Source: Gordonia aichiensis NBRC 108223 (GTDB lineage Bacteria > Actinomycetota > Actinomycetes > Mycobacteriales > Mycobacteriaceae). Taken from it: a stretch of DNA of 64,000 nucleotides. This document shows positions 25,392 through 59,716 of the stretch, one piece after another; the first letter of the stretch is position 1; each line of letters starts with the position of its first letter. The notes beneath the pieces are model-generated. The model searched no databases and had not been told where the DNA came from. It saw nothing but the letters and a program-made list of their open reading frames with translations. The stretch lies in the NCBI RefSeq assembly GCF_000332975.1, contig NZ_BANR01000006.1:62001-126000 (forward strand), given 5' to 3'. Made by a program: the position numbers and the translations under genes.

Positions 25392-25453
25392 ACGCGGCTG
25401 GAATCGGTAGACGCGGTTGGTGCACCAACCGCGTCCGCCGACTCGAGCCGCGT
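25392..25453 (+). repeat. 62-bp hairpin element, copy A
   Basis: Copy A of a three-copy family. Outer arms ACGCGGC (25392-25398) and GCCGCGT (25447-25453) flank a perfect 24-bp palindrome at 25411-25434 with arm ACGCGGTTGGTG. It starts 30 bp after the uraD stop, upstream of uraH. Copies B (50819) and C (59655) have the same length and outer arms. Possible roles: terminator, mRNA 3'-end stabiliser or REP-type element. Confidence 0.85.
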
Positions 25454-25482
25454 TCACGGCAAAGAAGTCACCGCCAACCCAC

Positions 25483-25488
25483 TAGGCT
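25483..25488 (+). promoter_or_regulatory. -10 box of a leaderless promoter for uraH
   Basis: TAGGCT ends 6 nt before ATG 25495. No ribosome site is visible, which agrees with a leaderless transcript. Confidence 0.45.
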
Positions 25489-25494
25489 GAATCC

Positions 25495-25821
25495 ATGACC
25501 GGACTGTCCACACACGTCCTCGACGCCGTCAGCGGTGCTCCCGCAGTCGGGATGTCGGTGATCCTGCGCGACGTCGACGGCGAACAACTCGCCTCGGGCA
25601 CCACCAACAGCGACGGCCGCATCCCGCAGGTCAACACCGACCCACTCGCGCCGGGCACCTACCATCTGGTCTTCGCGACCGCAGACTGGTTCGGCGCGAA
25701 CGGGATCGTCGGCTTCTTCCCGCAGATCGACATCTGTTTCACCATCGACGATCCGAATCGGCACTATCACGTACCGGTGCTGTTGAGTCCGTACTCGTAC
25801 TCCACCTACCGCGGTAGCTGA
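25495..25821 (+). CDS. uraH: 5-hydroxyisourate hydrolase
   Basis: Hydrolyses 5-hydroxyisourate, the product of urate oxidation, to OHCU, the substrate of UraD. 108 aa, the usual length for this transthyretin-like family. Signature residues are present: LSTHVLDAVSGAPA (His near the N-terminus), GRIPQ, HYHVPVLLSPYSYSTYRGS with the terminal YRGS. A separate promoter is likely (see TAGGCT box). The uricase (UOX/HpxO) that should supply it is not in the window. Confidence 0.95.
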   Translation: MTGLSTHVLDAVSGAPAVGMSVILRDVDGEQLASGTTNSDGRIPQVNTDPLAPGTYHLVFATADWFGANGIVGFFPQIDICFTIDDPNRHYHVPVLLSPYSYSTYRGS

Positions 25822-25825
25822 GTAC

Positions 25826-26695
25826 TCACCGCTCGTCGTCGCGCCGGTAGACCACAAGCGACAGTTCGTCACAACCGCGTACCTGCAGCGTCGTGAAGTG
25901 GCAGCCCACGACGCCTTCTCCCGGCACGCGCAGTCGCCACCGCCCCGACCTCTTGTCGTGCGGCTCATAGCGGTTCCAGATGTAGCGAAATGCCTTGCTG
26001 GACCGCCACAACCGGTCGATCAACGCTCGATGTTCCGCCGACGCAGGTCGCGTCGCGAGATTCAGATGAGCCAAGCCGACCACCTCGTAGGCCTTGGCCG
26101 TCCAGTCCACATACACCGATCTGCTGACCGGGTCGTCGAAGATGTACTCCAGCAACGAGACCGGTTGAAGCGGCCACTCGGACGAGTCCCGGTCGGGGAA
26201 CAGGACGGCCGCGGTCGCCTTGTCGACGGCGGTGAGCATCAACTCGTCGGTGAGAAGGTGCAGCATCACGGTGTCGAAGAGTCGGGTGCCGATGGCCAGC
26301 AGATCCGCCTCGGCATCGGCGAGCGCCTCGCTCGTCGCCATCGGCTCACCCGACGGTTCCGCGGTGAGTGCCAACAGATACCTGCGGTCGAGGTCGCTCA
26401 GACGCAGAGCGTCGGCGATGGAACCGACGACCGCGCGGGAGGGGTGTGCCACCTTGCCCTGCTCGAACTTGGTGTAGTAGTCCATGCTCACGCCTGCGGC
26501 CCAGGCGATCTCCTCGCGTCGCAGCCCCGCAACCCGGCGGTCGGTGGTGGCGTTGTAGACAGGCCAGGAGGGATCGGGCGCCAACTGTGCACGTCGATTC
26601 CGAAGGAACCCGGACGTCGCGGTGGCGCGGTAGTCGGCCGTGACAGAGCGCGACGACGCGCCCTTCGCGTCGTCGCTCCCCCGGCCTCCGCTCAT
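25826..26695 (-). CDS. XRE-family regulator with MmyB-like ligand-binding domain
   Basis: 289-aa repressor-type protein. The helix-turn-helix is at about 50-105 (LRREEIAWAAGVSMDYYTKFEQG); the C-terminal part (about 115-285, ending LQVRGCDELSLVVYRR) is the MmyB ligand-binding domain, which in its few known structures binds a fatty-acid-like ligand. These regulators often lie next to short-chain dehydrogenase genes, as here. It is the last gene of the SDR-DJ-1-XRE minus operon; its ATG at 26695 overlaps the previous stop by 4 bp. Probably an autoregulator of the operon. Confidence 0.88.
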   Translation of the reverse strand: MSGGRGSDDAKGASSRSVTADYRATATSGFLRNRRAQLAPDPSWPVYNATTDRRVAGLRREEIAWAAGVSMDYYTKFEQGKVAHPSRAVVGSIADALRLSDLDRRYLLALTAEPSGEPMATSEALADAEADLLAIGTRLFDTVMLHLLTDELMLTAVDKATAAVLFPDRDSSEWPLQPVSLLEYIFDDPVSRSVYVDWTAKAYEVVGLAHLNLATRPASAEHRALIDRLWRSSKAFRYIWNRYEPHDKRSGRWRLRVPGEGVVGCHFTTLQVRGCDELSLVVYRRDDER

Positions 26696-27240
26696 GCCAG
26701 TTGCGCGTCGATCGCGCCGGTGAAGTCCGACAGGTCGTCCGGCGTCCGCGACGTGATCAGCGTGAACCCGTTGGTGTCGTCACTCACGACCGCCTCGTCC
26801 ACCCAGTTGCCGCCTGCGTTGTTCACATCGGTCCGCAACGACGAATACGACGTCAGGGTCTTGCCGACCAGCAATCCGGTCTCGACGATCAGCCACGGTC
26901 CGTGACAGATCGCGGCGACCGGCTTACCCGCATCGGCAAAACCGCGCACCACGCTCTGCGCCGTCGCATCGGTGCGCAGGGTGTCGGCGTTGAGTGTGCC
27001 CCCGGGCACCACGAGGACGTCGTAGTCGGCGGGATCGACGTCGGCGATCGCGGCATCGGCGGCAACGGTTGGGCCCGGGTCCTTGTCGCCTACCAAGGTC
27101 TGTACGTCGTCGCCGTCGACGGTCGCGACAGTGACGGCGACACCTTCGTCACGCAGATGATCACGCGGGACAAGGAGTTCGTCGCGTTCGACGCCGTACG
27201 ACGTCGCGATGATCAGTGCCTTCTTGTCGGTGAGAGCCAT
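26692..27240 (-). CDS. DJ-1/PfpI family protein
   Basis: 182-aa class I glutamine-amidotransferase-like fold. Nucleophile elbow with Cys: AAICHGPWLIV, a strong PfpI/YhbO/DJ-1 match; also YDVLVVPGGTLN and an N-terminal KKALIIATSYGVERDEL. Members repair glycated proteins or nucleotides, or hydrolyse methylglyoxal; the activity here cannot be decided. ATG 27240 has AAAGGAT-like sequence upstream (weak). Stop overlaps the XRE start; the SDR stop is 13 bp upstream. Confidence 0.88.
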   Translation of the reverse strand: MALTDKKALIIATSYGVERDELLVPRDHLRDEGVAVTVATVDGDDVQTLVGDKDPGPTVAADAAIADVDPADYDVLVVPGGTLNADTLRTDATAQSVVRGFADAGKPVAAICHGPWLIVETGLLVGKTLTSYSSLRTDVNNAGGNWVDEAVVSDDTNGFTLITSRTPDDLSDFTGAIDAQLA

Positions 27241-27253
27241 GGGATCGATCCTT

Positions 27254-28105
27254 TCAGGAGTTGCCGTCAACCGGTGTGTACGGGGAGATGTCGTAGGCGG
27301 TCTGGACCAGTTCGGGACGCTTGCCGTCGTTGAGGGTGCGGTCCCACTGCGACTGTGTCTGCGCCTTGATGTCGTCGACCGTGTGCGCGGGCAGCACATG
27401 TCGGTAATCGGTGTCGGTACCGGTCAGCACATCGATCGTCACGGTGATGACCTCTTCGGGGTCGAACTGCTCGTGCGGGAATGCGAGCTTGCTGTAGTCG
27501 TAGAGCCGCGTCGACGGGTCGTCGACCCACGATTTCCACTCTTCGAACATCGTGTCGTTGAATCCGGTGAGGAACGGCCCGGGATTGATGGTGGCAACCG
27601 TCACGCCGTACTCGGCGAGTTCCTGATCCAACGCATCGGCAAACGCTTCGACGGCATGCTTCGAGCCTGCGTACGCACCGGTGAACGGGTCGACGGTGAG
27701 TCCGGCGACCGATGACATGAACACGATCTTGCCGCCACCCTTGGCCACCATCTGCTTGGCGATCGGCTGCGTCAGCAGGATCGGGCCGAAGACGTTCACC
27801 TCGAACTGCCTGCGGAGATTCTCGGCGGGAATGTCGACCGACGAACCGCCCTCGGAGATGCCCGCGTTGTTCAACAGCACGTCGACGTCCCACTGCGCAG
27901 CCTTCCGGCGATCGCCCTCATCGGTGACGTCGAGCTTCTCCACCCGCAGTTCGACGCCGCGCTTCTTCGCCTCCGCACGCAGCACGTTCACCTGCGCGAT
28001 GATCTCGACACCGGCGATCACATCGTGTCCCTGCTCCGCCATGCGTAGCGCGACCTCTTTGCCGAAGCCGCTTCCGGCACCGGTGATCAGATACGTCGTA
28101 CTCAT
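27254..28105 (-). CDS. Short-chain dehydrogenase/reductase
   Basis: 283-aa classical SDR: cofactor loop ITGAGSGFGKE (GxxxGxG), NNAG, catalytic Ser in SSVAGL and YAGSKHA (YxxxK). The ~40-residue C-terminal extension past the core could form a substrate cap. ATG 28105 with GGAGAG 6 nt upstream; a GTG at 28108 is alternative. First gene of the operon with the DJ-1-like and XRE genes. Substrate unknown. Confidence 0.9.
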   Translation of the reverse strand: MSTTYLITGAGSGFGKEVALRMAEQGHDVIAGVEIIAQVNVLRAEAKKRGVELRVEKLDVTDEGDRRKAAQWDVDVLLNNAGISEGGSSVDIPAENLRRQFEVNVFGPILLTQPIAKQMVAKGGGKIVFMSSVAGLTVDPFTGAYAGSKHAVEAFADALDQELAEYGVTVATINPGPFLTGFNDTMFEEWKSWVDDPSTRLYDYSKLAFPHEQFDPEEVITVTIDVLTGTDTDYRHVLPAHTVDDIKAQTQSQWDRTLNDGKRPELVQTAYDISPYTPVDGNS

Positions 28106-28173
28106 CACTTCTCTCCTTCATCGTCGATGACCGGCAGGACCGGTCGTCATGTCACACGCCGCTGGATTGCGGC

Positions 28174-28584
28174 TCACAGTGCAGCCGACGCCTCACGGGC
28201 GACCGTCGTGTCCTGTTCACGGGAGCCGCCGCTGACACCGACAGCTCCCACCACCATGCCGTCGACAATCAGCGGGATGCCGCCCGCGAAAACCAGGACG
28301 CGGCCGTGACCGCTCAACGCCATGCCCCAGAACTGTTCTCCTGGAAGCGAATCGGCGGCGAGATCTCCTGTTGGCGACCGGAAGAACACCGCGGTGTGCG
28401 CCTTGTCGATCGAGTGCTCGATACTTCCGAGCTGGGCGTCGTCCATCCGAACGTGAGCGACCAGGTTCCCGCCGTTGTCGACAACGGCGATGTTGCTCGG
28501 CGAGCCGATCCGCTCGGCCGCGGCGATCCCCGCGTCGATCATGCGTCGTGCGTCGGAGAGTCCGACCGTTGTCATACTTCGCAC
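28174..28584 (-). CDS. HbpS/GlcG/PduO-C-like protein
   Basis: 136-aa single-domain protein of the Haem_degrading family (HbpS/GlcG/PduO C-terminal). Typical start LSDARRMIDAGIAAAERIG, then IAVVDNGGNLVAHVRMD and IPLIVDGMVVGAVGVSGGS. HbpS binds haem, PduO-C a corrinoid; residues that would decide are not obvious here. Start at GTG 28584 because AGGAGG is 5 nt upstream; ATG 28575 is alternative. Divergent from the B12-riboswitch/metE unit, separated by a perfect palindrome. Confidence 0.82.
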   Translation of the reverse strand: MRSMTTVGLSDARRMIDAGIAAAERIGSPSNIAVVDNGGNLVAHVRMDDAQLGSIEHSIDKAHTAVFFRSPTGDLAADSLPGEQFWGMALSGHGRVLVFAGGIPLIVDGMVVGAVGVSGGSREQDTTVAREASAAL

Positions 28585-28663
28585 TGCTGCCTCCTCAACT
28601 GATTGATCGGAGTGCGCCGCTGTCACTGTTCGAGCGCGTATCACCCACGCTAGGCAGACCCTT

Positions 28664-28702
28664 GACGCCGTGCCTGGTTCTGTCGGAACCAGGCACGGCG
28701 TC
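28664..28702. repeat. Perfect 17-bp inverted repeat between the HbpS-like gene and metE
   Basis: Left arm 28664-28680 (gacgccgtgcctggttc), 5-nt loop tgtcg, right arm 28686-28702, no mismatch. It lies upstream of the probable metE promoter (TATGCT 28737-28742) and upstream of the oppositely oriented HbpS-like gene. It could be a terminator-type insulator, an operator, or the hairpin of an unannotated RNA. Confidence 0.8.
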
Positions 28703-28736
28703 GGCGACGGGGAATCGCCTCGACGTCGCCCTGCGC

Positions 28737-28742
28737 TATGCT
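28737..28742 (+). promoter_or_regulatory. Probable -10 box for the metE riboswitch transcript
   Basis: TATGCT. Transcription would begin near 28748, just before the riboswitch-like stem region. No clear -35 hexamer. Confidence 0.4.
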
Positions 28743-28747
28743 GCACC

Positions 28748-29015
28748 CGCAGCTGGTTCGCCCGCCGGGAGTCGCGATGGAGCCCCTCCGTCCCGCGCGC
28801 GGCGTCGAATCCGTTCGTCGCGCAGCTGCGCGACCTCGGGTGAGAGGGAATCCGGTGAGAATCCGGAGCTGTCCCGCAGCGGTATGTCGGAACGACCGCC
28901 GTCACACGCACTGGGCGCATGCCCGGGAAGCGACGGCCAGTAGGAACATCGCCGATGGCGAGAGTGCCGACAAGCCCGAAGACCTGCCTCCTGTACCGGT
29001 CGCGCCGCGACCGGT
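28748..29015 (+). promoter_or_regulatory. Cobalamin riboswitch upstream of metE
   Basis: Conserved core at 28846-28884: GGGAATCCGGTGAGAATCC then GGAGCTGTCCCGCAGCGGTA. The B12 box AAGCCCGAAGACCTGCC lies at 28972-28988. The last part carries a perfect hairpin 28995-29015 (ACCGGTCGC/GCGACCGGT) that may act in the expression platform, followed by about 130 nt to the metE start. It should turn off the B12-independent synthase when cobalamin is plentiful, as for mycobacterial metE. I saw no U-rich terminator, so translation could be the controlled step. Confidence 0.9.
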
Positions 29016-29144
29016 GGCTCACCGCCTCGTGGACCGGGCGCAGGTCGATCAGCGTTTTGTGATGCCCACGCATCACTCGGGGCTCGTCGACTCTCCCTGC
29101 ATGGCGGTGAACCGTCCGTATCGAATGCAGGAGTTCACGAACTC

Positions 29145-31469
29145 ATGTCCATCAGCACTCCCGGCACCTCACCCGCCGGCCACACCTCGGGGCCCGTGGC
29201 CGCCCCGTTCACCACCACCATTCCCGGTACACCCCGTATCGGCCCCCGACGCGAGCTCAAGCGGGCGATCGAGGGCTACTGGGCCGGGCGCGTCAGCGCC
29301 ACCGATCTGGAGCAGACGGCCGCCGACCTGCGACGGGATACCTCAGCACAGTTGGTCGCCGCCGGTTTCGACTCGATCCCGATCAACACCTTCTCCTACT
29401 ACGACCAGATCCTCGACACCGCTGTGCTCGTGGGTGCCCTACCCGCCCGGTACGACGGCATCGCCGATCCGCTCGACCGCTACTTCGCCGCGGCTCGGGG
29501 CACCGGCGAGATCGCACCGCTGGAGATGACGAAGTGGTTCGACACCAATTACCACTACCTCGTCCCCGAGATCGGACCCGACACGACGTTCACGTGCCAC
29601 CCCGACAAGGTGCTCGCCGAAGTCTCCGAGGCGCACGCGCAAGGGGTCGACGCCCGTCCCGTCGTCATCGGACCGATCACCTTCCTCGCCCTGTCGAAGC
29701 CCGTCGACGGCGCTGCGGCACCACTGTCGCGGATCGACGACGTTGTCGCCGTGTATGTCGAGCTGCTCGACAGGCTCGCGGAGGCCGGTGTGGGCTGGGT
29801 CCAGATCGACGAGCCCGTGCTCGTCACCGATTACGCCGACGACCTGACCGCCCTCGCCGGCTCTGTGTACTCGACGCTCGCCGACGCCACGAGCCGTCCG
29901 GCGATCTTCGTCAACACCTACTTCGGCGATCCCGGCGAATCCCTTGCGGCACTGGCACGTACACCGGTCGAGGCCATCGGTGTCGACCTCGTCGAGGGTT
30001 CTGTCGACACCGTCGTCTCGGTACCCGAACTCGCCGACAAACTACTCGTCGCCGGTGTGGTCAACGGACGCAATATCTGGCGGACAGATCTCGACAAGGC
30101 GCTCGCCACACTGGGAACACTACTGGGATCGGCACGGTCGCTTGCAGTTTCGACGTCCTGCTCCACCCTGCACGTCCCCTACACCCTCGACGCCGAGGAC
30201 GGACTCGACGACAATCTGCGCGGCTGGCTGGCGTTCGCGGCGCAGAAGTACGACGAGGTCGGGGTGCTCTCGCGCGCGCTGCGCAATGGCCGCGAGTCGG
30301 AGACGGCCGCTTTCGACGCCTCGTCGGCCGCCCTGGCGACACGCGAGTCGGATCCGCGCGTCCACGTCGCCGCCGTACGCGAACGGTTGGCAGCCATCAC
30401 CGACGACGACGTGACGCGCGGCAACGCGAATGATCGGATCGCCGCACAGAATGCGCGCCTGGGCCTCCCGACGCTGCCGACGACCACGATCGGCTCCTAT
30501 CCGCAGACCTCGGCGATCCGTCTCGCGCGGGCAGCACTGCGGTCCGGTGAGATCGACACCGCCGAGTACGAGCGGCGGATGCGCGCCGAGATCGACGACG
30601 TCATCGCATTGCAGGAGAAGATCGGGCTCGACGTCCTCGTGCACGGCGAACCCGAGCGCAACGACATGGTGCAGTACTTCGCCGAGCAGCTCGACGGCTT
30701 CTTCGCCACCGCGAACGGCTGGGTGCAGTCCTACGGCACCCGCTGCGTTCGCCCGCCGATCCTGTACGGCGACGTGGTGCGCACACACCCGATGACCGTC
30801 GACTGGATCACCTACGCGCAGTCGCTGACGAACAAGCCGGTCAAGGGGATGCTGACGGGACCGGTGACCATTCTGGCGTGGTCGTTCGTCCGCGACGACC
30901 AGCCGTTGTCGGTGTCCGCCGACCAGATCGCACTCGCCATCCGCGACGAAACCGTCGATCTGGAGGATGCCGGGATTCACATCATCCAGGTCGACGAGCC
31001 CGCACTGCGCGAACTGCTGCCACTGCGCGACGCCGACAAGAGGACATACCTCGACTGGGCCGTGCGGGCGTTCCGATTGGCCACCTCGGGCGTGTCCGAC
31101 ACGTCGCAGATCCACACGCACCTCTGCTACTCGGAGTTCGGCGAGGTCATCGGTGCGATCGCAGACCTCGACGCGGACGTCACATCCATCGAAGCCGCCC
31201 GCTCGGCGATGGAAGTGCTCGACGACCTCAACGAAGTCGGCTTCTCGAACGGGGTCGGCCCGGGTGTCTACGACATCCATTCACCGCGCGTCCCGGGTAC
31301 GGCGGAGATCGAGAAGTCGCTCCGCGCAGCACTCACTGCCGTTGGGCCGCAACGTCTCTGGGTGAACCCCGACTGCGGGCTCAAGACGCGAGCAACACCC
31401 GAGGTCATCGCGTCGCTGACCAACCTGGTCACCGCCGCCGCGACGGTGCGCGGCGACGTCGAGAACTGA
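29145..31469 (+). CDS. metE: Cobalamin-independent methionine synthase
   Basis: 774 aa; transfers the methyl group from 5-methyltetrahydropteroyl-triglutamate to homocysteine without B12. Two TIM-barrel halves: N half begins [19 protein letters not shown] cut to [10 protein letters not shown] half carries [10 protein letters not shown] and the zinc ligands in [11 protein letters not shown] (His and Cys), and CGLKTR (Cys). It begins after a cobalamin riboswitch, which matches its role as the B12-independent isoenzyme. ATG 29145; the first ~20 residues are low complexity. An imperfect hairpin follows the stop. Confidence 0.95.
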
Positions 31470-47201: not shown

Positions 47202-48044
47202 ATGGCTGCGCTGATGGATCTCCACACGATCTCCACGTACCGCTATGCACACAGCCGCGCCGACCTCCGCCTTGCCGACGGTGAACGTATTGTCGCCGGC
47301 GGCACGTGGTTCTTCTCCGAACCGCAGGTGAGCTCGACCGGCATCGTCGACATCAGCAGGATCGGCTGGCAAGCATTCGAGGATCTTCCCGACGGTGGTC
47401 TCCGGATCGCAGCGACCGCGACGGTGGCCGAGCTCGCCGAAATGCCCGCACAACGGGGCTGGCGGGCTCATCCGCTGCTGTTCCAGTGTGCCACAGCACT
47501 TCTCGCTTCCTTCAAGGTCTGGAACGTGGCGACGGTCGGCGGTAACATCTGCCGCTCGTTCGCCGCGGCGTCGATGGTGTCCCTGGCGTCGGGTCTCGAC
47601 GGCAGCGCACTTGTCTGGCGTCCGGACGGCACCGACTACACCGTCGCCGTCGCCGACCTCGTGACGGGCAACGGCACCAACACCCTCGCAGAAGGAGAAG
47701 TCCTGCGCGCCATCGACATCCCCGGATATGCGCTGCGTGCGCGAACAGGATTCCGCAAGATCGCTCTCGCGGAACTGGGGCGCTCCGGCGCGGTGGTGAC
47801 CGGCCGACACGATGAAGACGGCACTGCGGTATTCGGGATCACCGCTGCAACCCTGTGGCCGACGGTCTTGCGCTACAAGGGATTGCCCGACGCGGAGCAA
47901 CTGCGTGCCGACATCTGGTCTGCGGACGGCTACTACACCGACCCGCTCGGCGCCGCGGATTGGCGGCGTGGCGTCTCGGCTGTTCTGGCCGAGCAGATCC
48001 GTACGGAGCTCTCCCGTCCGGGCGAAGGCGGCGACGCACGATGA
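47202..48044 (+). CDS. FAD-binding subunit of a molybdenum hydroxylase (xanthine dehydrogenase-like)
   Basis: 280-aa FAD domain (CoxM/XdhB-like): IVAGGTWFFSEP (FAD phosphate loop region), AATATVAELAEMP, and WNVATVGGNICRSFAAASMV (TxGGNxxxSxPA-like). It carries electrons from the Mo/Fe-S protein to NAD or another acceptor. Start is taken as ATG 47202; ATG 47214 is equally possible. Its stop overlaps the next ATG by 4 bp. Confidence 0.87.
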   Translation: MAALMDLHTISTYRYAHSRADLRLADGERIVAGGTWFFSEPQVSSTGIVDISRIGWQAFEDLPDGGLRIAATATVAELAEMPAQRGWRAHPLLFQCATALLASFKVWNVATVGGNICRSFAAASMVSLASGLDGSALVWRPDGTDYTVAVADLVTGNGTNTLAEGEVLRAIDIPGYALRARTGFRKIALAELGRSGAVVTGRHDEDGTAVFGITAATLWPTVLRYKGLPDAEQLRADIWSADGYYTDPLGAADWRRGVSAVLAEQIRTELSRPGEGGDAR

Positions 48045-50803
48045 GGTTCGAGATCAACGGTGCGCAGGTCGACGCCGAGCCCGCTGCAGGCCAGTGTCTG
48101 CGAACGTTCCTGCGCGATCAAGCTTATTTCGAGGTCAAGAAGGGATGCGATGCGGGCGACTGCGGTGCGTGCTCGGTGCTCATCGACGACACCCCGGTCC
48201 ACTCCTGCATCTTTCCCGCCCAACGCATCGAAGGTCGATCGGTCACCACAGTGTCGGGGCTTGGCACACCCGACGACCTGCACCCCATGCAGCAGGCCTT
48301 CGTCGACAACTTCGGCTTCCAGTGCGGGTTCTGCACCGCGGGCATGATCGTCACCGCGTCGACGCTGGACCCGCACACCGTCGCCGACACAGCCGAACTG
48401 CAGCGGAAGATGAAGGGAAACCTGTGCCGCTGCACCGGTTATCGCGCGATCCGCCAGGCGATCCGGCAGGGTGTCTCCCCCGCCGACGACCTCCCCGACG
48501 CGACGGACGAGCGTGGTGTCGAGAGCACCGCCGCCGTCGGATCGTCGCTCACGCCGCCTGCGGGCCGCCGCGTGGTCACCGGTACCGAGCCGTACACCTT
48601 CGACGTCTCGGTGCCGGGGACCCGCTATCTCCGGGTACTCAGCTCGCCGCACCCCCATGCACGCATCGTCGCCATCGACACGTCCGCGGCCGAGGCGCTG
48701 CCCGGGGTGGCGCTCGTCCTCACCCACGAGAACGTCAGCACGCGAAGGTTTTCCACGGCGCGACACGAGTCACGCGCCGATGACCCGGACGACACACGTG
48801 TTCTGGACTCCGTGGTGCGTTTCGTCGGCCAGCGTGTGGCGGCCGTGATCGCCGACACAGCCGGAATCGCCGAAGAGGCATGCCGGTTGATCGATGTCGA
48901 GTATGAGCTTCTGCCAGGGGTCTTCGACCCCGAGGAGGCTCGACGCCCCGGGGCCCCGCTCGTCCACCCCGACCGCACTTACGAGGACAGGGTCTTCGAG
49001 GCCGAGCGCAATGTCATCTCCTCGTTCCACGAGGGTTTCGGAGGCGACGTCGATGCGGCGCTTGCCGCCTCGGCCGTCACCGCTGGCGGTACCTGGCAGA
49101 CAGCTCGGATCTCCCACGCGCAGCTGGAAACCCACGGCTCGATCGGGTGGCTCGACGACGACGGACGCCTCGTGATCCGCACGAGCACACAGGTCCCCTT
49201 CCTCGTCCGCGACGAACTGGCGCTGCTTCTCGACCTACCCGCCGAGCGTGTCCGCGTGTTCAGCGCGCGCGTCGGCGGCGGCTTCGGCGGTAAGCAGGAA
49301 CTGCTCACCGAAGACCTTGTGGCGATCGGTGTGCTCCGGACCGGCGCGCCGGTGGCCTACGAGATGAGCCGCACCGACGAGATGACCCGAACCACGTACC
49401 GTCATCCGTTCCGGGTCGCGGTCGATCTCGGCGCTGACACCGACGGCAGGCTCCGTGCGATGAAGGTCGACGTCCTCTCCGACACCGGCGCCTACGGCAA
49501 TCACTCGATGGGGGTGATGTTCCACTCCTGCGCCGAGTCGGTATCGGTGTACAACTGCCCGGTCAAGCGGATCGACGCGGAAGTGGTCTACACCAACAAC
49601 CCGCCCTCCGGCGCGTTCCGGGGCTACGGTCTCGGCCAGGTGATCCTCGCTGTCGAGTCCGCCATGGACGAGTTGGCCATCGAACTCGACATCGACCCGT
49701 TCGACCTGCGCCGCATTAACGCGGTACGGGAGGGCGATCCACTGCTCATCGCGCACCCCGAGCCGGAAGACGACCTGATCTACGGCAGCTACGGGCTCGA
49801 CCAGTGTCTCGACCTCGCGCAGACGGCCTTGCGTCGCGGCAACGATGCGGTTGTACCGGAGGGCGATTCGTGGCGGGTCGGTGAGGGAATGGCCATCGCG
49901 GCGATCGCGACCATGGCGCCGAGGGGGCATTTCTCCACCGTGTCAGTCGGTGTCGACGTCGACGGCAGATACCACGTCGGTGTGGGCACAGCCGAGTTCG
50001 GCAACGGTACGACGACGGTCCTCACCCAGATCGTCACCGAGGCGGTGGGAACCGATCCGTCACGAATCGTGTTGCGGCACGGCGACACCGACGCAGCGCT
50101 TTACGACACCGGGGCCTTCGCCTCCGCGGGAATCACGGTGGCGGGCAAGGCGACCTACGGCGCAGCACTCGCCCTGCGCACGTTGTTGCTCGACGCCGCG
50201 TCGTCGATCACCGCGACATCTCCCGACGCCATCCGGCTAGTGCCCGATGGCGCACTCGTCGGCGAGAGACTCGTCGGTTTCGGCGAACTCATCGACGCGG
50301 TCGACCCGGTTCATCGAGTGGCCGACCGGGTTGTGGCCACGGGCTCCGAGAGCGGCGCACTGCGTTCGATCGCGTTCAATGTGCACGCATTTCGTGTCGC
50401 CGTCGACACCTCGACCGGCACGGTGCGCATTCTGCAGTCCGTCCAGTCCGCAGACGCCGGCACGGTGATGAATCCGCAACAGTGCCGCGGACAGGTGGAG
50501 GGCGGTGTGGCCCAGGCGATCGGTTCGTCGCTCTACGAGGAGATCATGCTCGACGGAAAAGGTGTACCGCTCACCCCGGTGTTCCGCACCTACCGGGTGC
50601 CGCAGATGGCCGACGTCCCCGAGACCGAGGTCTACTTCGCCGACACGTCGGACGAGCTCGGCCCCTACGGAGCGAAGTCGATGAGTGAGTCGCCCTACAA
50701 CCCGGTGGCGCCCGCCCTGGCCAACGCGGTCCGGCGGGCAATTGGCCGACGCCCCTACGAACTGCCGATGTCACGCGATCGGGTCTGGCGCCTGCTCCAG
50801 TGA
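48041..50803 (+). CDS. Xanthine-dehydrogenase-like protein: [2Fe-2S] and molybdopterin domains fused
   Basis: 920 aa. Residues about 1-150 are the two [2Fe-2S] domains (GCDAGDCGACSVL, CGFCTAGM, CRCTGY). The rest is the molybdopterin-binding hydroxylase: RVGGGFGGKQELLTED, GAFRGYGLGQVILAVES and the catalytic Glu in GAKSMSESPYNPVAPA (GVGEP-like). The small and large subunits, usually separate, are fused as in XdhD-type proteins. With the deaminase and the FAD subunit it should hydroxylate a purine. ATG 48041 overlaps the FAD gene stop. A 62-bp hairpin follows 15 bp after the stop. Confidence 0.9.
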   Translation: MRFEINGAQVDAEPAAGQCLRTFLRDQAYFEVKKGCDAGDCGACSVLIDDTPVHSCIFPAQRIEGRSVTTVSGLGTPDDLHPMQQAFVDNFGFQCGFCTAGMIVTASTLDPHTVADTAELQRKMKGNLCRCTGYRAIRQAIRQGVSPADDLPDATDERGVESTAAVGSSLTPPAGRRVVTGTEPYTFDVSVPGTRYLRVLSSPHPHARIVAIDTSAAEALPGVALVLTHENVSTRRFSTARHESRADDPDDTRVLDSVVRFVGQRVAAVIADTAGIAEEACRLIDVEYELLPGVFDPEEARRPGAPLVHPDRTYEDRVFEAERNVISSFHEGFGGDVDAALAASAVTAGGTWQTARISHAQLETHGSIGWLDDDGRLVIRTSTQVPFLVRDELALLLDLPAERVRVFSARVGGGFGGKQELLTEDLVAIGVLRTGAPVAYEMSRTDEMTRTTYRHPFRVAVDLGADTDGRLRAMKVDVLSDTGAYGNHSMGVMFHSCAESVSVYNCPVKRIDAEVVYTNNPPSGAFRGYGLGQVILAVESAMDELAIELDIDPFDLRRINAVREGDPLLIAHPEPEDDLIYGSYGLDQCLDLAQTALRRGNDAVVPEGDSWRVGEGMAIAAIATMAPRGHFSTVSVGVDVDGRYHVGVGTAEFGNGTTTVLTQIVTEAVGTDPSRIVLRHGDTDAALYDTGAFASAGITVAGKATYGAALALRTLLLDAASSITATSPDAIRLVPDGALVGERLVGFGELIDAVDPVHRVADRVVATGSESGALRSIAFNVHAFRVAVDTSTGTVRILQSVQSADAGTVMNPQQCRGQVEGGVAQAIGSSLYEEIMLDGKGVPLTPVFRTYRVPQMADVPETEVYFADTSDELGPYGAKSMSESPYNPVAPALANAVRRAIGRRPYELPMSRDRVWRLLQ

Positions 50804-50818
50804 TCATCGGTATCCCAC

Positions 50819-50880
50819 ACGCGGCCCCAGTGCGTGGACGCGGGTGGTGCACCAGCCGCGTATGCCAACTCGAGCCGCGT
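50819..50880 (+). repeat. 62-bp hairpin element, copy B
   Basis: Copy B of the family. Outer arms ACGCGGC (50819-50825) and GCCGCGT (50874-50880), inner hairpin 50838-50861 with one mismatch (arm ACGCGGGTGGTG). Starts 15 bp after the dehydrogenase stop and before mntH. Same orientation as the gene it follows. Confidence 0.85.
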
Positions 50881-50971: not shown

Positions 50972-52249
50972 GTGAGCACGGTCGGAGAACGCGAGCAAGC
51001 CGAGGCGTCGGCACCCCGCGAGCGCATCCGCCGTCCTCGCGCACTGCTGCGCAACGTCGCACTCCTCGGTCCCGCGTTCGTGGCCGCCATCGCGTATGTC
51101 GATCCGGGCAATGTTGCCGCCAACATCACCGCGGGCTCGCGATACGGGTTTCTCTTGGTATGGGTGCTCGTTCTCGCCAACGTCATCGCGATGCTGATCC
51201 AGTACCAGTCGGCGAAACTCGGGATCGTCACCGGCAAGGGGCTCCCGGCGATCCTCGGTGAGCGGATGGGACGCCGATCCCGGCTGGCCTTCTGGATGCA
51301 GGCCGAAGCCGTCGCGGTAGCCACAGACCTCGCCGAGGTACTCGGCGGCGCGATCGCGCTGAACCTCCTGTTCGGACTCCCGCTCGTCTTCGGCGGCGCG
51401 ATCGTCGGGGTGGTGTCGCTGCTGATGTTGCTGCTCCAGAATCCGCGTCAGCAGCATGTCTTCGAACGGGTCATCCTCGGGATGCTCGCAATCATCGTGA
51501 TCGGCTTCCTGGCCGGACTCGTCGTCGAACCGCCCCCTCCTGGAGAAGTTCTCGGTGGACTGGTGCCACGGTTACAGGGCCCCGAGACGGTCCTACTCGC
51601 AGCATCCATGCTCGGCGCCACCGTCATGCCGCACGCGATCTACGTCCACTCCTCGCTGGTCGTCGATAGGCACGGCATCAGTACCAGCACGTCGCGAACC
51701 CGACGACTGATCAGGGTCACCCGCTGGGATGTGGTCATCGCCCTCATCGTCGCGGGCGCCGTCAACATCGCGCTGCTACTCCTCGCCGCCACCAACCTTC
51801 GCGGCAAGGAGGGAACCGACACCATCGAAGGCGCCTACGACGCCGTGCGCGACTCGCTGGGCCCCTCGGTGGCAACCATTTTCGCCATCGGACTACTGGC
51901 CAGCGGCCTCGCCGCGACGTCGGTCGGATCGTCTGCGGGTTCGGCGATCATGGATGGACTGCTGCACATACGGATACCTCTCGTGCTCCGCAGGCTCGTC
52001 ACACTCGTCCCGGCGTTGGTAGTCCTCGGAGTCGGGGTCGATCCGACGTGGGCGCTTGTGATCAGTCAGGTGGTGTTGAGCTTCGGGATCCCCTTCGCGA
52101 TCATCCCGCTGGGGCGCCTCACCGCCGACCGTCGGATCATGGGTGACTACGCCGACGGATGGCCGCTCCGCATCGCCGCCACGATCTCGTCGATCCTCAT
52201 CGTGGTGCTCAATCTGGCCTTGATCGTGCTGATCTTCACCGGGGCCTGA
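50972..52249 (+). CDS. mntH: Nramp-family divalent metal transporter
   Basis: 425-aa importer of Mn2+/Fe2+ driven by protons. Signatures: GPAFVAAIAYVDPGNVAANIT (metal-binding DPGN in helix 1) and LGATVMPHAIYVHSSL (MPH of helix 6). About 11 membrane helices. Starts with GTG 50972 after a weak GGTCAG site. Upstream is the copy-B hairpin; mgtC follows 251 bp later. Confidence 0.93.
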   Translation: MSTVGEREQAEASAPRERIRRPRALLRNVALLGPAFVAAIAYVDPGNVAANITAGSRYGFLLVWVLVLANVIAMLIQYQSAKLGIVTGKGLPAILGERMGRRSRLAFWMQAEAVAVATDLAEVLGGAIALNLLFGLPLVFGGAIVGVVSLLMLLLQNPRQQHVFERVILGMLAIIVIGFLAGLVVEPPPPGEVLGGLVPRLQGPETVLLAASMLGATVMPHAIYVHSSLVVDRHGISTSTSRTRRLIRVTRWDVVIALIVAGAVNIALLLLAATNLRGKEGTDTIEGAYDAVRDSLGPSVATIFAIGLLASGLAATSVGSSAGSAIMDGLLHIRIPLVLRRLVTLVPALVVLGVGVDPTWALVISQVVLSFGIPFAIIPLGRLTADRRIMGDYADGWPLRIAATISSILIVVLNLALIVLIFTGA

Positions 52250-54725: not shown

Positions 54726-54807
54726 CTCGGGAGACTGAGCACCTCCCGAGCATGCGGATCGGTCCGGGTGAGGTCGCGACCTGACCCTTCACCTGGACCG
54801 ATCCGCA
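54726..54807 (+). terminator. Two adjacent hairpins between mno and the MoxR gene
   Basis: Hairpin 1: CTCGGGAG (54726-54733) with CTCCCGAG (54743-54750). Hairpin 2: TGCGGATCGGTCC (54753-54765) with its exact complement at 54795-54807, enclosing a further 9-bp dyad (GGGTGAGGT/ACCTGACCC, one mismatch). Terminator of mno, attenuator of the downstream pair, or operator are all possible. Confidence 0.7.
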
Positions 54808-54854
54808 CCCCCGAGTTCACACCACACCCGCGAGCACTGATGTCACGAGGAGCC

Positions 54855-55982
54855 ATGCCGGACGTGTCCGAACTGTCCAACGCCCCATTGTCGAGCACCT
54901 TACTGCCGGAAGCCGAATCATCGCCCTTCTCACACGGATTCGACACCGTGGAGGAGCTGATCGGGAGTCTCGACGCCCAGGGCTACCTCATCGATGACGA
55001 CCTCGCGGTGGTCGTCCACCTCGCCACACTGCTCGACCGGCCACTTCTACTGGAGGGACCCGCGGGCGTCGGAAAGACCGAGTTGGCCAAATCTCTTGCT
55101 GCGGCGTCGGGTCGGGAGTTGATCCGCCTGCAGTGCTATGAGGGACTCGACGAGTCACGCGCACTCTACGAATGGGATTACGCCCGCCAACTCCTGCACG
55201 TGCAGATGCTGCGCGACCGGATCGGCACCGAGCTCGCCGCCCAGCCGACACTGTCCGCCGCATCCGCGGCGCTGACCCGCGCCGACGTCGGCGTCTACAC
55301 CGAGGACTTCCTCGTCGCCAGGCCGCTGCTCGCCGCAATCACCGCGGCCTCACCGACGGTATTGCTCGTCGACGAGGTCGACCGCACCGACGAGGCGATG
55401 GAAGCGGTCATGCTCGAGGTGCTCGCCGAGCGTCAGGTGACCGTGCCGGAACTGGGCACCTTCACCGCGCGGTCGTCACCGTGGGTGATCCTCACCTCCA
55501 ACGACACTCGCGAGCTCTCCCCCGCACTCAAGCGACGCTGCCTGCACTTCCAGGTCGATTACCCCGACGTCGAACGCGAACGACGCATCGTCGCGGTCCG
55601 CGCACCGGAGGTCGAGCCGGCGGTGATCGCCGACGTCGTCGACCTTGCGCGCCGCCTGCGAGAGTTACCGTTGCGCAAAAGTCCCTCCATCGCCGAGGTC
55701 ATCGACGCCGCACGGGCGGCGGCGTATCTACGCACGACGACCGCCGCGCACGCTGCGGACCCGCCACACGATCAGGCGTCCACCGACCGCGCCCTGCTCT
55801 CGCTGCTGGTGAAGTTCGGCAGTGACCTCGATACCGCGCGAGCCGCGATGGGTGCCCCGGCGTCGTCCGCATCCGGCGTCGATACCCCGACCCCCATAGC
55901 AGCCGACGGCTCGAGTCCGCGAGGATCTGTGACCGCGACCGCGTTCGGATCAGGTCGTGCACGTAGTGCCGGTCGACGCTGA
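54855..55982 (+). CDS. MoxR-type AAA+ ATPase
   Basis: 375-aa ATPase of the MoxR/CoxD type. Walker A GPAGVGKTELAKSLA, Walker B TVLLVDEVDR, sensor/arginine-finger region LTSNDTRELSPALKRRCL. The last 50 residues are Ala/Ser/Pro-rich. ATG 54855 follows GAGGAG; an in-frame ATG at 54840 is alternative. With the VWA gene 4 bp downstream it forms the chaperone pair that inserts metal into a partner enzyme; candidates are Mno just upstream or the Mo-hydroxylase at 48-50.8 kb. Confidence 0.88.
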   Translation: MPDVSELSNAPLSSTLLPEAESSPFSHGFDTVEELIGSLDAQGYLIDDDLAVVVHLATLLDRPLLLEGPAGVGKTELAKSLAAASGRELIRLQCYEGLDESRALYEWDYARQLLHVQMLRDRIGTELAAQPTLSAASAALTRADVGVYTEDFLVARPLLAAITAASPTVLLVDEVDRTDEAMEAVMLEVLAERQVTVPELGTFTARSSPWVILTSNDTRELSPALKRRCLHFQVDYPDVERERRIVAVRAPEVEPAVIADVVDLARRLRELPLRKSPSIAEVIDAARAAAYLRTTTAAHAADPPHDQASTDRALLSLLVKFGSDLDTARAAMGAPASSASGVDTPTPIAADGSSPRGSVTATAFGSGRARSAGRR

Positions 55983-55986
55983 GAAC

Positions 55987-57525
55987 ATGGCGACCCCTTC
56001 TCGAGTGCGCAGTGCCACCGCGACCCGCGATCACGTACTGGACGCGATTGCGGTGGTGTTCGGACACGCGCTCCGCCGTCATCACGTCACCGTCTCCCCC
56101 GCCGAGGTCATCGAGATCAGACGGACGCTGACACTCGTGGGGGCCGACGACCTCGACCGGCTACGGGCGGCACTCCGCGCGGTCAGCGTGAAGTATGCGC
56201 ACGAGGGCGACGGCTTCGACACCGCCTTCGACCTCGTGTTCGTCGGCGCACAGAAGGCAGATGACGCCGCCGACCTCCCACGTCCCCGCGGCGCGGCGGC
56301 AGAGCTACCCGAGGACGTCGCCTGGGACGACGACTTCGACGGAGCGGCACGGCGCATCGGCGCCGACGAGCACACCGACGAGATCGGCGACCTGATGGCC
56401 GACGATCCCGACGCGCGTGAACGCCACGGGGAGAGCGCACATCGCGAAGAGAACGATTTCTCGGTGTCGGCGGGGACAGAACAGTTGACCGTGGACGCCG
56501 AAAGCGACAGCGTCGCAGGCGGAATCACCTACACGGTCGAGATCGACGGAGCGGCAGCTGCCCAAGCCGGTGAACTGGTGGGGTCGACGGCGCGCGTGAG
56601 CGGAACGTCGATCACGATGGCCGACGCGGCTGCGATTCTCGCCGCTCTCGACTCCGCCGACGCACGCAGCGTCTACGGCGACGACGGCGCGAAGGACCTC
56701 AGCGACGAGCAACGTGCGGAACTCGAACATGCACTGTCCCAGTTCATCTCAGCACTCTCCGAACGCCTTGTCGGCGTAGCAGCAGACGCCGTACTCGATT
56801 CCGCGCCCCTACACGGGAGCGATCAGGCACAGATCGACCGAGCGTGTCACCGACTCATCCAACGTCTTCGGGGTGCGCCACGTACGGTGGCGCGCACAGC
56901 TGATCGTGGAGCGCTCGACATGCGTCGCACGATGCGTTCGGCGGTCCGCACCGACGGGGTCCCCCTCACGCTGTGGCGCAGGGTTCGCTCGCCGGGCCCG
57001 GTGCGACTGCTCATCCTCGTCGACGTCTCGTTGTCGGTGCGACCGGTCGCGGGTTTCATACTGCGACTCGCACAGACGCTCTACGCGTTCGGTGACCGAT
57101 GCGAGGTCGTGGCTTTTGTGGACAGACCGGTGCTGGTCACGACCGCGCTGAGAACAGCCGCCGCCGACGGCGCACTCGCGGCCGTTTTGGCCACCGACGA
57201 CCTCGACCTGTCTGCGACGAGTGATTACGGCCGCATGCTCGCCGAGTTGCTCGAGAGTCATAGCGGTCTCATCACCGCGCGCACGTCGGTCCTCGTCGTC
57301 GGCGACGCGCGCAGCAACGGCTTCGATCCCCGCGTCGACCTGTTCGCCGAATTGGCTCGGCGGGTCCACCGGATGGCATGGGTCACCCCGGAGCCGCGCC
57401 GATACTGGACCCAAACGGGCTGCGCTCTCGGTGATTACGCGCAGCACTGCACCGGCGCGGTAAGCGCCCGCGACGGAACAGAACTCATCGAGAAGGCCGA
57501 CGAACTCGGAAGTGCGCTGGCCTGA
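55987..57525 (+). CDS. VWA-domain CoxE-like protein
   Basis: 512 aa. N-terminal ~300 residues are acidic and helical. From about 335 a von Willebrand A domain follows with a MIDAS motif DVSLSV (Asp346, Ser348, Ser350), then SDYGRMLAELLE and VLVVGDARSNG. CoxE-type proteins act with MoxR ATPases to mature metalloenzymes. Start at ATG 55987, 4 bp after the ATPase stop; an upstream GTG (55957) would overlap it. Convergent with the acyl-CoA dehydrogenase gene. Confidence 0.85.
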   Translation: MATPSRVRSATATRDHVLDAIAVVFGHALRRHHVTVSPAEVIEIRRTLTLVGADDLDRLRAALRAVSVKYAHEGDGFDTAFDLVFVGAQKADDAADLPRPRGAAAELPEDVAWDDDFDGAARRIGADEHTDEIGDLMADDPDARERHGESAHREENDFSVSAGTEQLTVDAESDSVAGGITYTVEIDGAAAAQAGELVGSTARVSGTSITMADAAAILAALDSADARSVYGDDGAKDLSDEQRAELEHALSQFISALSERLVGVAADAVLDSAPLHGSDQAQIDRACHRLIQRLRGAPRTVARTADRGALDMRRTMRSAVRTDGVPLTLWRRVRSPGPVRLLILVDVSLSVRPVAGFILRLAQTLYAFGDRCEVVAFVDRPVLVTTALRTAAADGALAAVLATDDLDLSATSDYGRMLAELLESHSGLITARTSVLVVGDARSNGFDPRVDLFAELARRVHRMAWVTPEPRRYWTQTGCALGDYAQHCTGAVSARDGTELIEKADELGSALA

Positions 57526-57531
57526 CAACCC

Positions 57532-58755
57532 TCAGGCAAGCAGCCCCTTTGCCACATGAGTCACCTGGATCTCGTTGCTACCCGCGTAAATCATCAGCGA
57601 CTTGGCATCGCGCGCAAGCTGTTCCACGCGATATTCGGCCATATAGCCGTTTCCGCCGAACAACTGCACCGCCTCCATCGCGACCTCCGTCGCCGCCCGC
57701 GACGAGTAGAGCTTCATCGCCGACGCCTCGGCCAACGACAACGGCTTGCCCGCCTTCGCGCGTTCGAGCGCGTTGAACAGCATGTTCTGCACGTTGATCC
57801 GCGCGATCTCCATCTCGGCGAGCTTGAGCTGGATGAGCTGGAAGCGACCGATTTCCTGGCCCCAGAGTGTCCTCGACTTGGCGTACTCGATCGACAGCCG
57901 CTGAGCCTCGTTGATGATGCCCATCGACAGCGCCGCGATCCCGATACGTTCGGCGGTGAACCCCGCCTTCACACCGTCGTCGCCCCGGCTGCTCGACCCG
58001 GTGTCCTCGGTCTCACCGAGCAGCCGGTCACGCCCGAGACGCACGTTGTCGAAGAAGAGCTCACCGGTCGGGCTGCTCATGATGCCCATCTTCTTGAACG
58101 GCTTGCCCTGCGTGAGTCCCTCCATGCCCTTGTCGAGCACGAAGGTCAGCACCTTGCGGTCGCGCATCGGTGTGCCGTCACCCTCGTCGAGTTTCGCGAA
58201 CACGACGATGGTGTCGGCATACGGGCCGTTGGTGATGAACGTCTTCTGCCCGTTGAGCACGTAGCCGTCGCCGTCACGGCGGACCGTCGTCTTCATGCCG
58301 CCGAGTGCGTCCGAGCCCGAGTCCGGCTCGGTGATTGCCCAGGCACCGACCTTCTCCAGTGTCACCAGCTCCGGCAGCCACCGCTTCTTCTGCGCGAGCG
58401 TGCCTTTCGAGCGGATCGTCGACACCGTGAGTCCGACGCTGACCCCCATCGAGACCACCATGCCGAGACTCGCTGCGGCCAGTTCCATGTTGAGGATGAG
58501 CGCCATCGAGTTCATCATTCCGCCGCCCCCGGACCCCTTGGGCTTGGACTCACCCGCGGCCTCGGCGTCGAGTTCCTTCTCGAGCCCCTCGCGCGCCATC
58601 GCGTCGACGCCGAAGGAGGTCATCAGCTTCCGCAAGATGTCGTACGGCGGCAACTGCCCGCTCTCGAGTTCGTCGGAGTGCGGCCGGATCTCCTTGTCGA
58701 CGAACGACCGCACCGCGTCGCGGACCATAAGGTCTTCTTCGGACCACTCGAACAT
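57532..58755 (-). CDS. Acyl-CoA dehydrogenase
   Basis: 407-aa flavoenzyme of fatty-acid oxidation. Middle domain AWAITEPDSGSDALGGMKTTV and VLNGQKTFITNGPYAD; C-terminal domain with GGNGYMAEYRVEQLARDAKSLMIYAGSNEIQ cut to GGNGYMAEY and IYAGSNEIQ, the flavin-binding signature. A ~25-residue Gly/Ser/Lys-rich insertion (KPKGSGGGG) lies at about 70-82 of the first domain. ATG 58755, with TAGGTGG upstream; GTG 58761 is alternative. Chain-length preference unknown. Its stop is 6 bp from the stop of the VWA gene. Confidence 0.9.
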   Translation of the reverse strand: MFEWSEEDLMVRDAVRSFVDKEIRPHSDELESGQLPPYDILRKLMTSFGVDAMAREGLEKELDAEAAGESKPKGSGGGGMMNSMALILNMELAAASLGMVVSMGVSVGLTVSTIRSKGTLAQKKRWLPELVTLEKVGAWAITEPDSGSDALGGMKTTVRRDGDGYVLNGQKTFITNGPYADTIVVFAKLDEGDGTPMRDRKVLTFVLDKGMEGLTQGKPFKKMGIMSSPTGELFFDNVRLGRDRLLGETEDTGSSSRGDDGVKAGFTAERIGIAALSMGIINEAQRLSIEYAKSRTLWGQEIGRFQLIQLKLAEMEIARINVQNMLFNALERAKAGKPLSLAEASAMKLYSSRAATEVAMEAVQLFGGNGYMAEYRVEQLARDAKSLMIYAGSNEIQVTHVAKGLLA

Positions 58756-58968
58756 TGCCACCTACCCATCAGCGAGAACTAGAACACGTTTCAGTACAGC
58801 TTGGCACGCCGCGTTCTCCCCGGTCCACACATACCCGGATTCTGCCCAACCGGTACCCGCGTGAACTGCACTCACGCAATCGACGGCTACCGGCTAGTGA
58901 CACGAGTGCCGACCGCTGACCCGCCGCGTGAATGGACACCATTCGCCGTCGTGCGCTACGCAGAGACC

Positions 58969-59646
58969 ATGACCGAGTCAATCCACGCCGCTTTCGGCCC
59001 CTTCTTCGAGGTCGAGATCCACGACGCGGACGATCATGTCGAGGAGGGCTGGTTGACGATGACGGCCGCCCTGCTTGACGACACGGTGCTCACCGACCGG
59101 GTCGAGCGGGTGCGGCGCGCATTGGGTGTGGGCGCCACCGGCACCGTCCACGAACGGGCCGCGGCCTCGGTGACGCATCTCGGCCTGGTGGCGCGGCTCA
59201 TCGCACCCTCACTGGGTGCCGCGGTGTCCGGGACAACCGTCTCGCTGAAGCCCGACCACGTCTGGTGGCGCGACGAGCTCGGCGGACCGTTTCCGCTCTC
59301 AGTCGTGTTGCTCGGTGCCGTCGACACGAAACCCGGTGCCGTCGACGTGGATCTCGGTGCCGTCGGCGAACTGAGCGCATGGTTCGCCCGGCGGTATCCG
59401 CTCAGCATGCGAGTGCTCGGAGGAAACGTCGCGTCGGCGATCAACTCCGCGGCACGGATGATCGGGATGGCTGTCCCAGACCTCGCGGACGCCGCACTAC
59501 TGCACGCGGACCGGTTTCTCGCACACCCCGACATCGAGGGTGGGCAGCTGCGGGCCGGGCCTGCCTTCAGACGCCGAAGCTGCTGCCTGATCTACCAGGT
59601 GTCGGGCGACCGCACCGCGGTGTGCGGCGACTGCGTGCTGGCCTGA
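58969..59646 (+). CDS. FhuF-like ferric-siderophore reductase (C-terminal Fe-S motif)
   Basis: 225-aa protein ending in the FhuF-type [2Fe-2S] signature: RRRSCCLIYQ and VCGDC (Cys-Cys, x10, Cys-x2-Cys). The rest has a conserved WARRYPLS-type WFARRYPLS helix and LGGNVASAINSAARM. Proteins of this family reduce ferric iron from siderophores in the cytoplasm. I see no siderophore synthesis or uptake gene nearby. ATG 58969; upstream open frame to GTG 58801 is probably untranslated. Followed by the 62-bp element, then the convergent cbtA. Confidence 0.75.
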   Translation: MTESIHAAFGPFFEVEIHDADDHVEEGWLTMTAALLDDTVLTDRVERVRRALGVGATGTVHERAAASVTHLGLVARLIAPSLGAAVSGTTVSLKPDHVWWRDELGGPFPLSVVLLGAVDTKPGAVDVDLGAVGELSAWFARRYPLSMRVLGGNVASAINSAARMIGMAVPDLADAALLHADRFLAHPDIEGGQLRAGPAFRRRSCCLIYQVSGDRTAVCGDCVLA

Positions 59647-59654
59647 TAAGCCAC

Positions 59655-59716
59655 ACGCGGCCCGAACTGGTGAACGCGGCTGGTACACCAGCCGCGTCTG
59701 CCAACTCGAGCCGCGT
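59655..59716 (+). repeat. 62-bp hairpin element, copy C
   Basis: Copy C. Outer arms ACGCGGC (59655-59661) and GCCGCGT (59710-59716); inner hairpin 59674-59697 (arms ACGCGGCTGGT / ACCAGCCGCGT, AC in the centre). It starts 8 bp after the FhuF-like stop and ends 17 bp before the cbtA stop, so it lies exactly between two convergent genes and could terminate both. Confidence 0.85.

Follow-up and report, generated by a model that had tools for sequence, protein, structure and literature searches.

What are three 62-base-pair (bp) palindromes, each lying just past a stop codon, doing on the chromosome of Gordonia aichiensis NBRC 108223? They occur in a stretch of 64,000 nucleotides (nt), hereafter the window (RefSeq assembly GCF_000332975.1, contig NZ_BANR01000006.1, positions 62,001 to 126,000 of the forward strand), and had been noted there in an earlier reading of the bare DNA (the original prediction) as a family resembling either repetitive extragenic palindromic (REP) sequences or terminators. 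Our analysis points to a gene: the dispersed palindromes, herein termed the ACGCGG family (family 1), probably belong to a chromosomal AbiEi/Vsr-type gene that is itself bracketed by two of their copies, in a REP-like arrangement whose enzyme is unrelated to the REP-associated tyrosine transposases (RAYT).

Two palindromes bracket a gene for an AbiEi/Vsr-type protein

In the sputi group, i.e., the window's species together with G. otitidis, G. sputi, and G. jacobaea, two family copies bracket a single gene, which encodes a winged-helix protein of the AbiEi type whose C-terminal domain is of the Vsr/homing-endonuclease type. The N-terminal winged helix and the middle domain match AbiEi by fold and by PADLOC profiles, while the C-terminal domain, a putative nuclease with invariant acidic residues, matches the Vsr/homing-endonuclease fold. 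Pfam searches of 37 homologues at an E value of 0.01 recovered AbiEi_4 in 18 and AbiEi_1 in 5. Homologues (E value 1e-5) are encoded in 58 of the 59 Gordonia genomes at 1 to 13 matches each, with multiple copies in most genomes. The full gene is present in two sister species, and G. otitidis (G027) has its start; in G. aichiensis (L084 3089-3937, C75), the gene next to the upstream palindrome is missing its first 28 codons, for which an assembly error is possible. Reading the neighbours by eye in L084 only, we noticed no toxin-like partner beside the gene; those in L084 and L056 we take to be an aldolase and a VOC-type protein.

Matching flanks often surround homologous genes across Gordonia and the order

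To compare flanks, the 170 nt before each gene were aligned with the 170 nt after it, with a score of at least 24 counted as a similar stretch. Two sets were examined: 27 Gordonia loci, either from genomes beyond the sputi group or from elsewhere in sputi-group genomes, and the 28 best-scoring loci from the 102 matching genomes among 200 surveyed across the order (two of these loci being from Gordonia). Similar flanks were present at 22 of the 27 Gordonia loci and at 18 of the 28 order-wide loci (16/26 outside the genus), compared with 0 of 50 window genes (best score 16) and 1 of 133 control genes at the fetched loci. Grouping by shared flanks reduced the two sets to 15 and 16 independent loci, of which 12 and 9, respectively, had at least one positive member, and 11 and 7 had all members positive. 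The single positive control gene (L144 1716-2048, score 25) may represent a further bracketed element. Both flanks carried strong palindromes at 15/27 and 6/28 loci vs. 0/50 controls (the start-codon choice made by the script hid upstream palindromes at L154 and L161 that appeared in another analysis); thus, beyond Gordonia, flanks that match are seen more often than good palindromes.

The sequence of the palindromes varies by subfamily (CGCTCAC, GCGAGC, ACGCGG, and others). Among 23 palindromes of at least 55 bp, 12 contain an exact 6-mer repeat within the arm (tested range 14-25), and the spacing is 19 in all 12, where shuffling would yield 0.61; by shared flanks, these 12 palindromes amount to about five independent loci. 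Palindrome similarity also tracks protein identity (Mantel r 0.74, 0/2000 permutations), with L158, L163, and L167, which have no clear palindrome, left out of both the spacing and the Mantel analyses. The association between palindrome and gene is well supported.

Architecture of the 62-bp element

The three window copies (Table 1) sit exactly where the original prediction had placed them, their ends being ACGCGGC/GCCGCGT and their inner palindrome spanning 24 bp, and the separation of copies A, B, and C from the preceding stop codon (30, 15, and 8 bp) and the convergent genes on both sides of copy C are likewise as described. The statement that all copies run in the same direction as the upstream gene carries little meaning, because the entire 62 bp form one imperfect palindrome, laid out as 19 + 24 + 19 with arms of 31. 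A further correction concerns the repeated unit: each arm holds two ACGCGG-like half-sites 19 bp apart, giving four per element. These half-sites (ACGCNG) form a direct pair in each arm and are mirrored about GGTNNACC, the arm consensus being ACGCGGCCCGAACTGGCAGACGCGGCTGGT plus one centre base. Allowing up to three mismatches, the inner pattern matches three places only within the window and none in 100 shuffles. In L085, the element is succeeded at ~3063-3082 by an extra half-unit (GATTCGGGCCGCGT), suggestive of one more repetition of the 19-20-bp unit.

Copy number, range, and position past stop codons

Fewer than ten copies in the genome, or copies scattered without relation to gene ends, would have told against the original prediction, and neither is the case. 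With copy C as the query, 11 full-length places were recovered in the G. aichiensis genome, and a profile built from 34 copies returned the identical 11 on both strands (22 matches); ten of these lie 0-36 nt past a called stop. No stop was called near the eleventh (L086), the G. otitidis orthologue of which (L068) is located 29 nt past one. Across the 59 Gordonia genomes, the consensus matched 6 at an E value of 0.001 and the profile matched 24 at 0.01, with strong matches (E < 1e-9) in 7, namely G. aichiensis itself (G000), G. jacobaea (G019), G. otitidis (G027), G. sputi (G053), G. oryzae (G026), G030, and G031. Scanning named genomes with the inner pattern yielded 18 stretches, five each in G. 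otitidis, G. sputi, and G. jacobaea and one each in G. oryzae, Naasia, and Thermocrispum, and no match in viral contigs. A phage or plasmid origin was rejected, with copy C having no match in phage or plasmid records. Copy numbers are to be read as lower bounds, as several genus searches scored limited candidates per genome or used stricter filters. On C1 of G031 (6.03 Mb), the family-1 matches listed lie at 0.9-2.15 or 5.18-6.02 Mb, with none of those listed in the 3 Mb between.

For position, 37 copies were considered, i.e., 35 from the sputi group (L065 dropped, L112 included) and one each from G031 and G030. Twenty-four lie past one stop, 12 lie between convergent stops, and one (L057) has no called stop nearby. 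The distance is 0-52 nt for 36 of the 37, with the value for L086 set from its orthologue, whereas random placement in the intergenic space of the window would bring 19% within 52 nt of a stop. As most of these copies are orthologues of one another in different species, they do not count as independent observations. Gene calls came from a home-made finder that had learned its codon usage from the window, and some neighbours may have been missed (L086, L057). HNH-type genes (HNH; GmrSD_C/HNH_4) at L086 3093-4175 and L089 3514-3876 are found 30 and ~450 nt from two G. aichiensis copies, and were taken as neighbours only.

A second palindrome family past stop codons

The palindrome of an AbiEi/Vsr-type gene in G004, unrelated to the ACGCGG family, has matches in 17 of the 59 Gordonia genomes. 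Of the 43 copies fetched (five genomes), 37 are at most 28 nt from a stop and 39 at most 55 nt, with one lacking a called stop; in the 34 copies compared, conserved ends occur at a constant 63-nt spacing. Given that this family is also found behind stops, such dispersal is not peculiar to the ACGCGG family. Arm pairing in these 34 copies (24.3 vs. 24.0, P 0.09) is a weak hint, from a set that omits 9 of the 43 copies, chosen manually under no fixed criterion.

The arms favour a double-stranded DNA site over an RNA hairpin

The description of the elements as terminator-like was apt as regards their position and their strong predicted RNA folds (-50.1, -34.5, and -44.4 kcal/mol for the three window copies). 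The narrow band past stop codons and these folding energies would both be expected of RNA hairpins serving as transcription terminators or as 3'-end stabilisers of the upstream mRNA. However, the arms pair no better than do arms exchanged between copies (23.7 vs. 24.0 pairs), and the covariation score of 0.131 falls below the shuffled mean of 0.147, having been reached in 483 of 500 shuffles (L065 left out of both tests, and L112 also not in the covariation alignment). In 24 tandem copies, G-U cells (66) barely outnumber A-C cells (61) in the assumed transcribed direction, no T-tract follows any of the three window copies, and the second family contributes its weak pairing hint only. An RNA hairpin would also leave unexplained the palindrome upstream of the putative nuclease start. 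With neither covariation nor a clear G-U excess, we rejected the hairpin as the selected feature and consider it quite improbable as the main account of these elements. The lack of covariation is more in keeping with a double-stranded DNA site; each arm adheres to the consensus independently, as would be the case in a symmetric protein-binding site.

Conservation, gain, and loss of copies

Most copies in the sputi group are found at positions common to its members, and their sequence is conserved beyond that of their flanks. Over 37 orthologous pairs, representing 13 places in that group (L065 left out), elements are 90.2% identical vs. 76.5% for the adjacent 40-nt flanks by gapped alignment. 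In 34 copies, 25 of the 62 columns are invariant, and substitutions avoid the half-sites. Since changes spare the half-sites and identity exceeds that of the flanks, the copies therefore behave like functional or actively maintained DNA motifs, unlike dead repeats.

Such constraint is also what one would expect if solitary copies were DNA sites useful to the host, bound by the AbiEi/Vsr-type protein or another of the same specificity and acting as a transcription roadblock or a chromosome-organising anchor, with the gene carrying the same sites as its operators. The narrow band past stop codons would suit this explanation, as would the presence of the gene at one locus in several species, which does not make it an obviously recent invader. 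Nevertheless, we regard host utility of this kind as unlikely: the presence of copies varies between close species, the genes that would be served are unrelated, and copies persist even in G. aichiensis, whose protein is missing the beginning of its DNA-binding domain. Moreover, a pure regulator needs neither a palindrome past its own stop nor a nuclease domain with invariant acidic residues.

The variation in presence is apparent at several places. Copy A has an orthologue in G. otitidis and is absent at that place from G. jacobaea and G. sputi, both of which lack 121 bp there; in five further Gordonia genomes examined, the place holds a short unrelated spacer. Copies B and C have orthologues in all three sister species (the G. 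sputi counterpart of copy B, L065, bearing a 2-nt insertion), and the copy in L090 is absent from all three. The gene-bearing unit of G030 lies between two convergent genes, and matches to its flanks are 67-360 bp apart in at least 26 other genomes (hand count), including G031, where half a palindrome is left. In three genomes, the flank matches are ~670-750 bp apart, with a different open reading frame called in two. Copies thus turn over, without a clean insertion footprint.

By eye, no consistent target-site duplication was seen in the flanks of the 11 G. aichiensis copies, although old copies may have lost it. This bears on a further alternative, in which an ordinary transposase or DUF222-HNH genes move the elements as miniature inverted-repeat transposable elements (MITEs), leaving the AbiEi/Vsr-type gene as a passenger. 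In its favour, related palindromes adjoin multi-copy DUF222-HNH genes in G030 and G031. However, no DUF222 match was obtained in the window or in the fetched sputi-group loci (L053-L074, L084-L090, L112, L330-L333), and DUF222-HNH genes were rejected as the driver. Furthermore, matching flanks of unrelated sequence recur around AbiEi/Vsr-type genes of other families, which is not expected of a passenger. We consider the passenger account very improbable. The DUF222-HNH genes themselves (L076-L082, L316, L318, L319, L320, and L323 of G030/G031), some of them broken up, lie beside family-1-like palindromes; they could possibly represent a second nuclease type acting on the same palindromes, or a target-site preference.

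Proposed mechanism and the points that weigh against it

In our preferred reading, the palindromes belong to the AbiEi/Vsr-type gene. Its winged helix would bind the half-sites, perhaps with one protomer on each, and the protein may repress its own gene via the upstream copy in the manner of AbiEi antitoxins; both the binding of four half-sites and the self-repression are proposed by analogy with known AbiEi proteins. A RAYT-like role is proposed because the protein has a nuclease-type domain, a palindrome lies past its own stop, and further copies are dispersed. The putative nuclease domain would then cut or nick DNA, after which repair would spread or maintain the palindromes, with copies settling where an insertion does little harm, i.e., past stop codons and between convergent genes. 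We infer three activities for this protein, namely binding, cleavage, and mobilisation. In a broader version, which we would put just short of an even chance, AbiEi/Vsr-type genes of actinobacteria are selfish elements that copy or maintain their own double-stranded, four-half-site palindromes past stop codons in a subfamily-specific manner, thus constituting an invention independent of, yet akin to, REP/RAYT.

Several observations count against this account. (i) The G. aichiensis and G030 proteins match no Pfam or NCBIfam family at an E value of 0.001, with the AbiEi label coming from PADLOC profiles, weaker Pfam matches, and fold. (ii) Copies persist in G. aichiensis although its gene lacks the first 28 codons. 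(iii) Flank similarity falls below the cut-off at 5/27 Gordonia and 10/28 order-wide loci, and the counts of strong palindromes on both sides given above are low. (iv) The Mantel signal stems mainly from the 9 closest pairs, several of which are one locus in sister species. (v) A clean recent insertion with a precise boundary was not found at copy A, at the L090 copy, or at the G030 unit; the empty sites differ by the 121 bp (copy A) or hold an unrelated spacer, and the half palindrome in G031 suggests loss of the unit there. (vi) Sputi-group genomes contain about 9-11 copies each; as these are few and mostly inherited vertically, mobility would be slow at best.

Genes around the window copies

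The three window copies adjoin genes of differing function (Table 1). Copy A begins 30 nt past the stop of the uraD-like gene and ends 41 nt ahead of the uraH-like start, whereas copy C lies 8 nt past one stop and 17 nt from the convergent one. At gathering scores, Rfam reported two cobalamin riboswitches only in the window, the second of which precedes, on the same strand, the CbtA gene adjoining copy C.

Table 1. Window copies of the palindrome, adjoining genes, and Rfam matches (positions are those of the window).
Feature	Position	Strand	Details
Copy A	25392-25453	none	Half-sites 25392-25397, 25411-25416, 25429-25434, 25448-25453; centre GGTGCACC
Copy B	50819-50880	none	Half-sites 50819-50824, 50838-50843, 50856-50861, 50875-50880
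Copy C	59655-59716	none	Half-sites 59655-59660, 59674-59679, 59692-59697, 59711-59716
OHCU decarboxylase (uraD-like), upstream of copy A	24849-25361	+	Pfam PF09349
Hydroxyisourate hydrolase/transthyretin-like (uraH-like), downstream of copy A	25495-25821	+	Pfam PF00576
Gene upstream of copy B	48041-50803	+	Own gene finder; presumably a fused xanthine-dehydrogenase-type protein (named from its sequence)
Nramp-type metal transporter, downstream of copy B	50972-52249	+	Pfam PF01566
FhuF C-terminal-domain protein, upstream of copy C	58951-59646	+	Pfam PF11575
CbtA cobalt transporter subunit, far side of copy C, convergent with the FhuF-domain gene	59734-60549	-	Pfam PF09490
Cobalamin riboswitch	28807-29005	+	RF00174, 83.7 bits
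Cobalamin riboswitch	60835-60962	-	RF00174, 33 bits

Comparison with known systems

As described in excerpts of PMC8266576 and PMC3733652, REP/RAYT systems combine palindromes dispersed within a lineage with a dedicated nuclease gene that sits beside its own palindromes and usually shows no sign of mobility, the enzyme and palindrome co-evolving. The likeness here lies in the dispersed extragenic palindromes and the flanked nuclease-like gene. Accordingly, the part of the original prediction describing the family as REP-type and possibly lineage-specific holds insofar as the palindromes are dispersed, extragenic, and limited to a lineage, and a nuclease-like gene lies between copies of its own palindrome; membership in the REP/RAYT family is not supported. 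A search for the RAYT domain PF01797, in line with the check suggested for RAYT genes, gave 0 matches in the G. aichiensis genome (the control matching 5 of 14 named genomes), and a RAYT was rejected on this ground; the associated protein, moreover, has an AbiEi/Vsr-type fold. Here, the protein pairs an AbiEi winged helix with a Vsr-type fold instead of being an HUH tyrosine transposase; the element is 62 bp long and carries four half-sites, those of each arm being 19 bp apart, without covariation of the arms; copies number ~10 per genome; and the gene family is multicopy in most genomes. As to recognition, which in REP/RAYT systems involves a single-stranded hairpin with a conserved tetranucleotide tag, the observation here is that the arms lack covariation.

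Known AbiEi proteins, according to PMC7319586, repress their own promoter, where they bind paired inverted repeats that lie ahead of the gene; Rv2827c binds four repeats. The winged helix and middle domain are shared with these antitoxins of type IV toxin-antitoxin systems (Streptococcus agalactiae AbiEi, Mycobacterium tuberculosis Rv2827c), whereas the protein described here has an extra C-terminal nuclease-type domain, palindromes both on either side of its gene and dispersed, and, by eye in L084, no toxin-like partner noticed beside it. The putative nuclease differs from other proteins of the Vsr-type fold (the I-Bth0305I homing endonuclease, Vsr) in being joined to an AbiEi-type DNA-binding part and in having palindromes on either side of its gene. 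In TIRtrons, as covered in part of PMC3733652, short elements match the ends of a longer gene-bearing unit. The same is true of the short elements here; however, no known transposase was found at the unit, no target duplications were evident by eye, and each end in the sputi group is a complete palindrome, which sets them apart from MITEs and TIRtrons.

Among the titles and opening abstract lines examined from an open-access library, none describes palindromes around AbiEi/Vsr-type genes, and the arrangement seems to be a selfish repeat system of a novel kind. If this is correct, genes annotated as AbiEi-type antitoxins with no other context would become nuclease candidates that carry their own readable target sites, and the DNA specificity of each subfamily could be read from the repeats flanking the gene. 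It would also add, outside the HUH enzymes, a second example of apparent co-evolution between a nuclease-like protein and dispersed palindromes, and thus an independent system in which to test ideas first framed for REP sequences, i.e., selfish spread vs. host use, and the reason for a position past stop codons.

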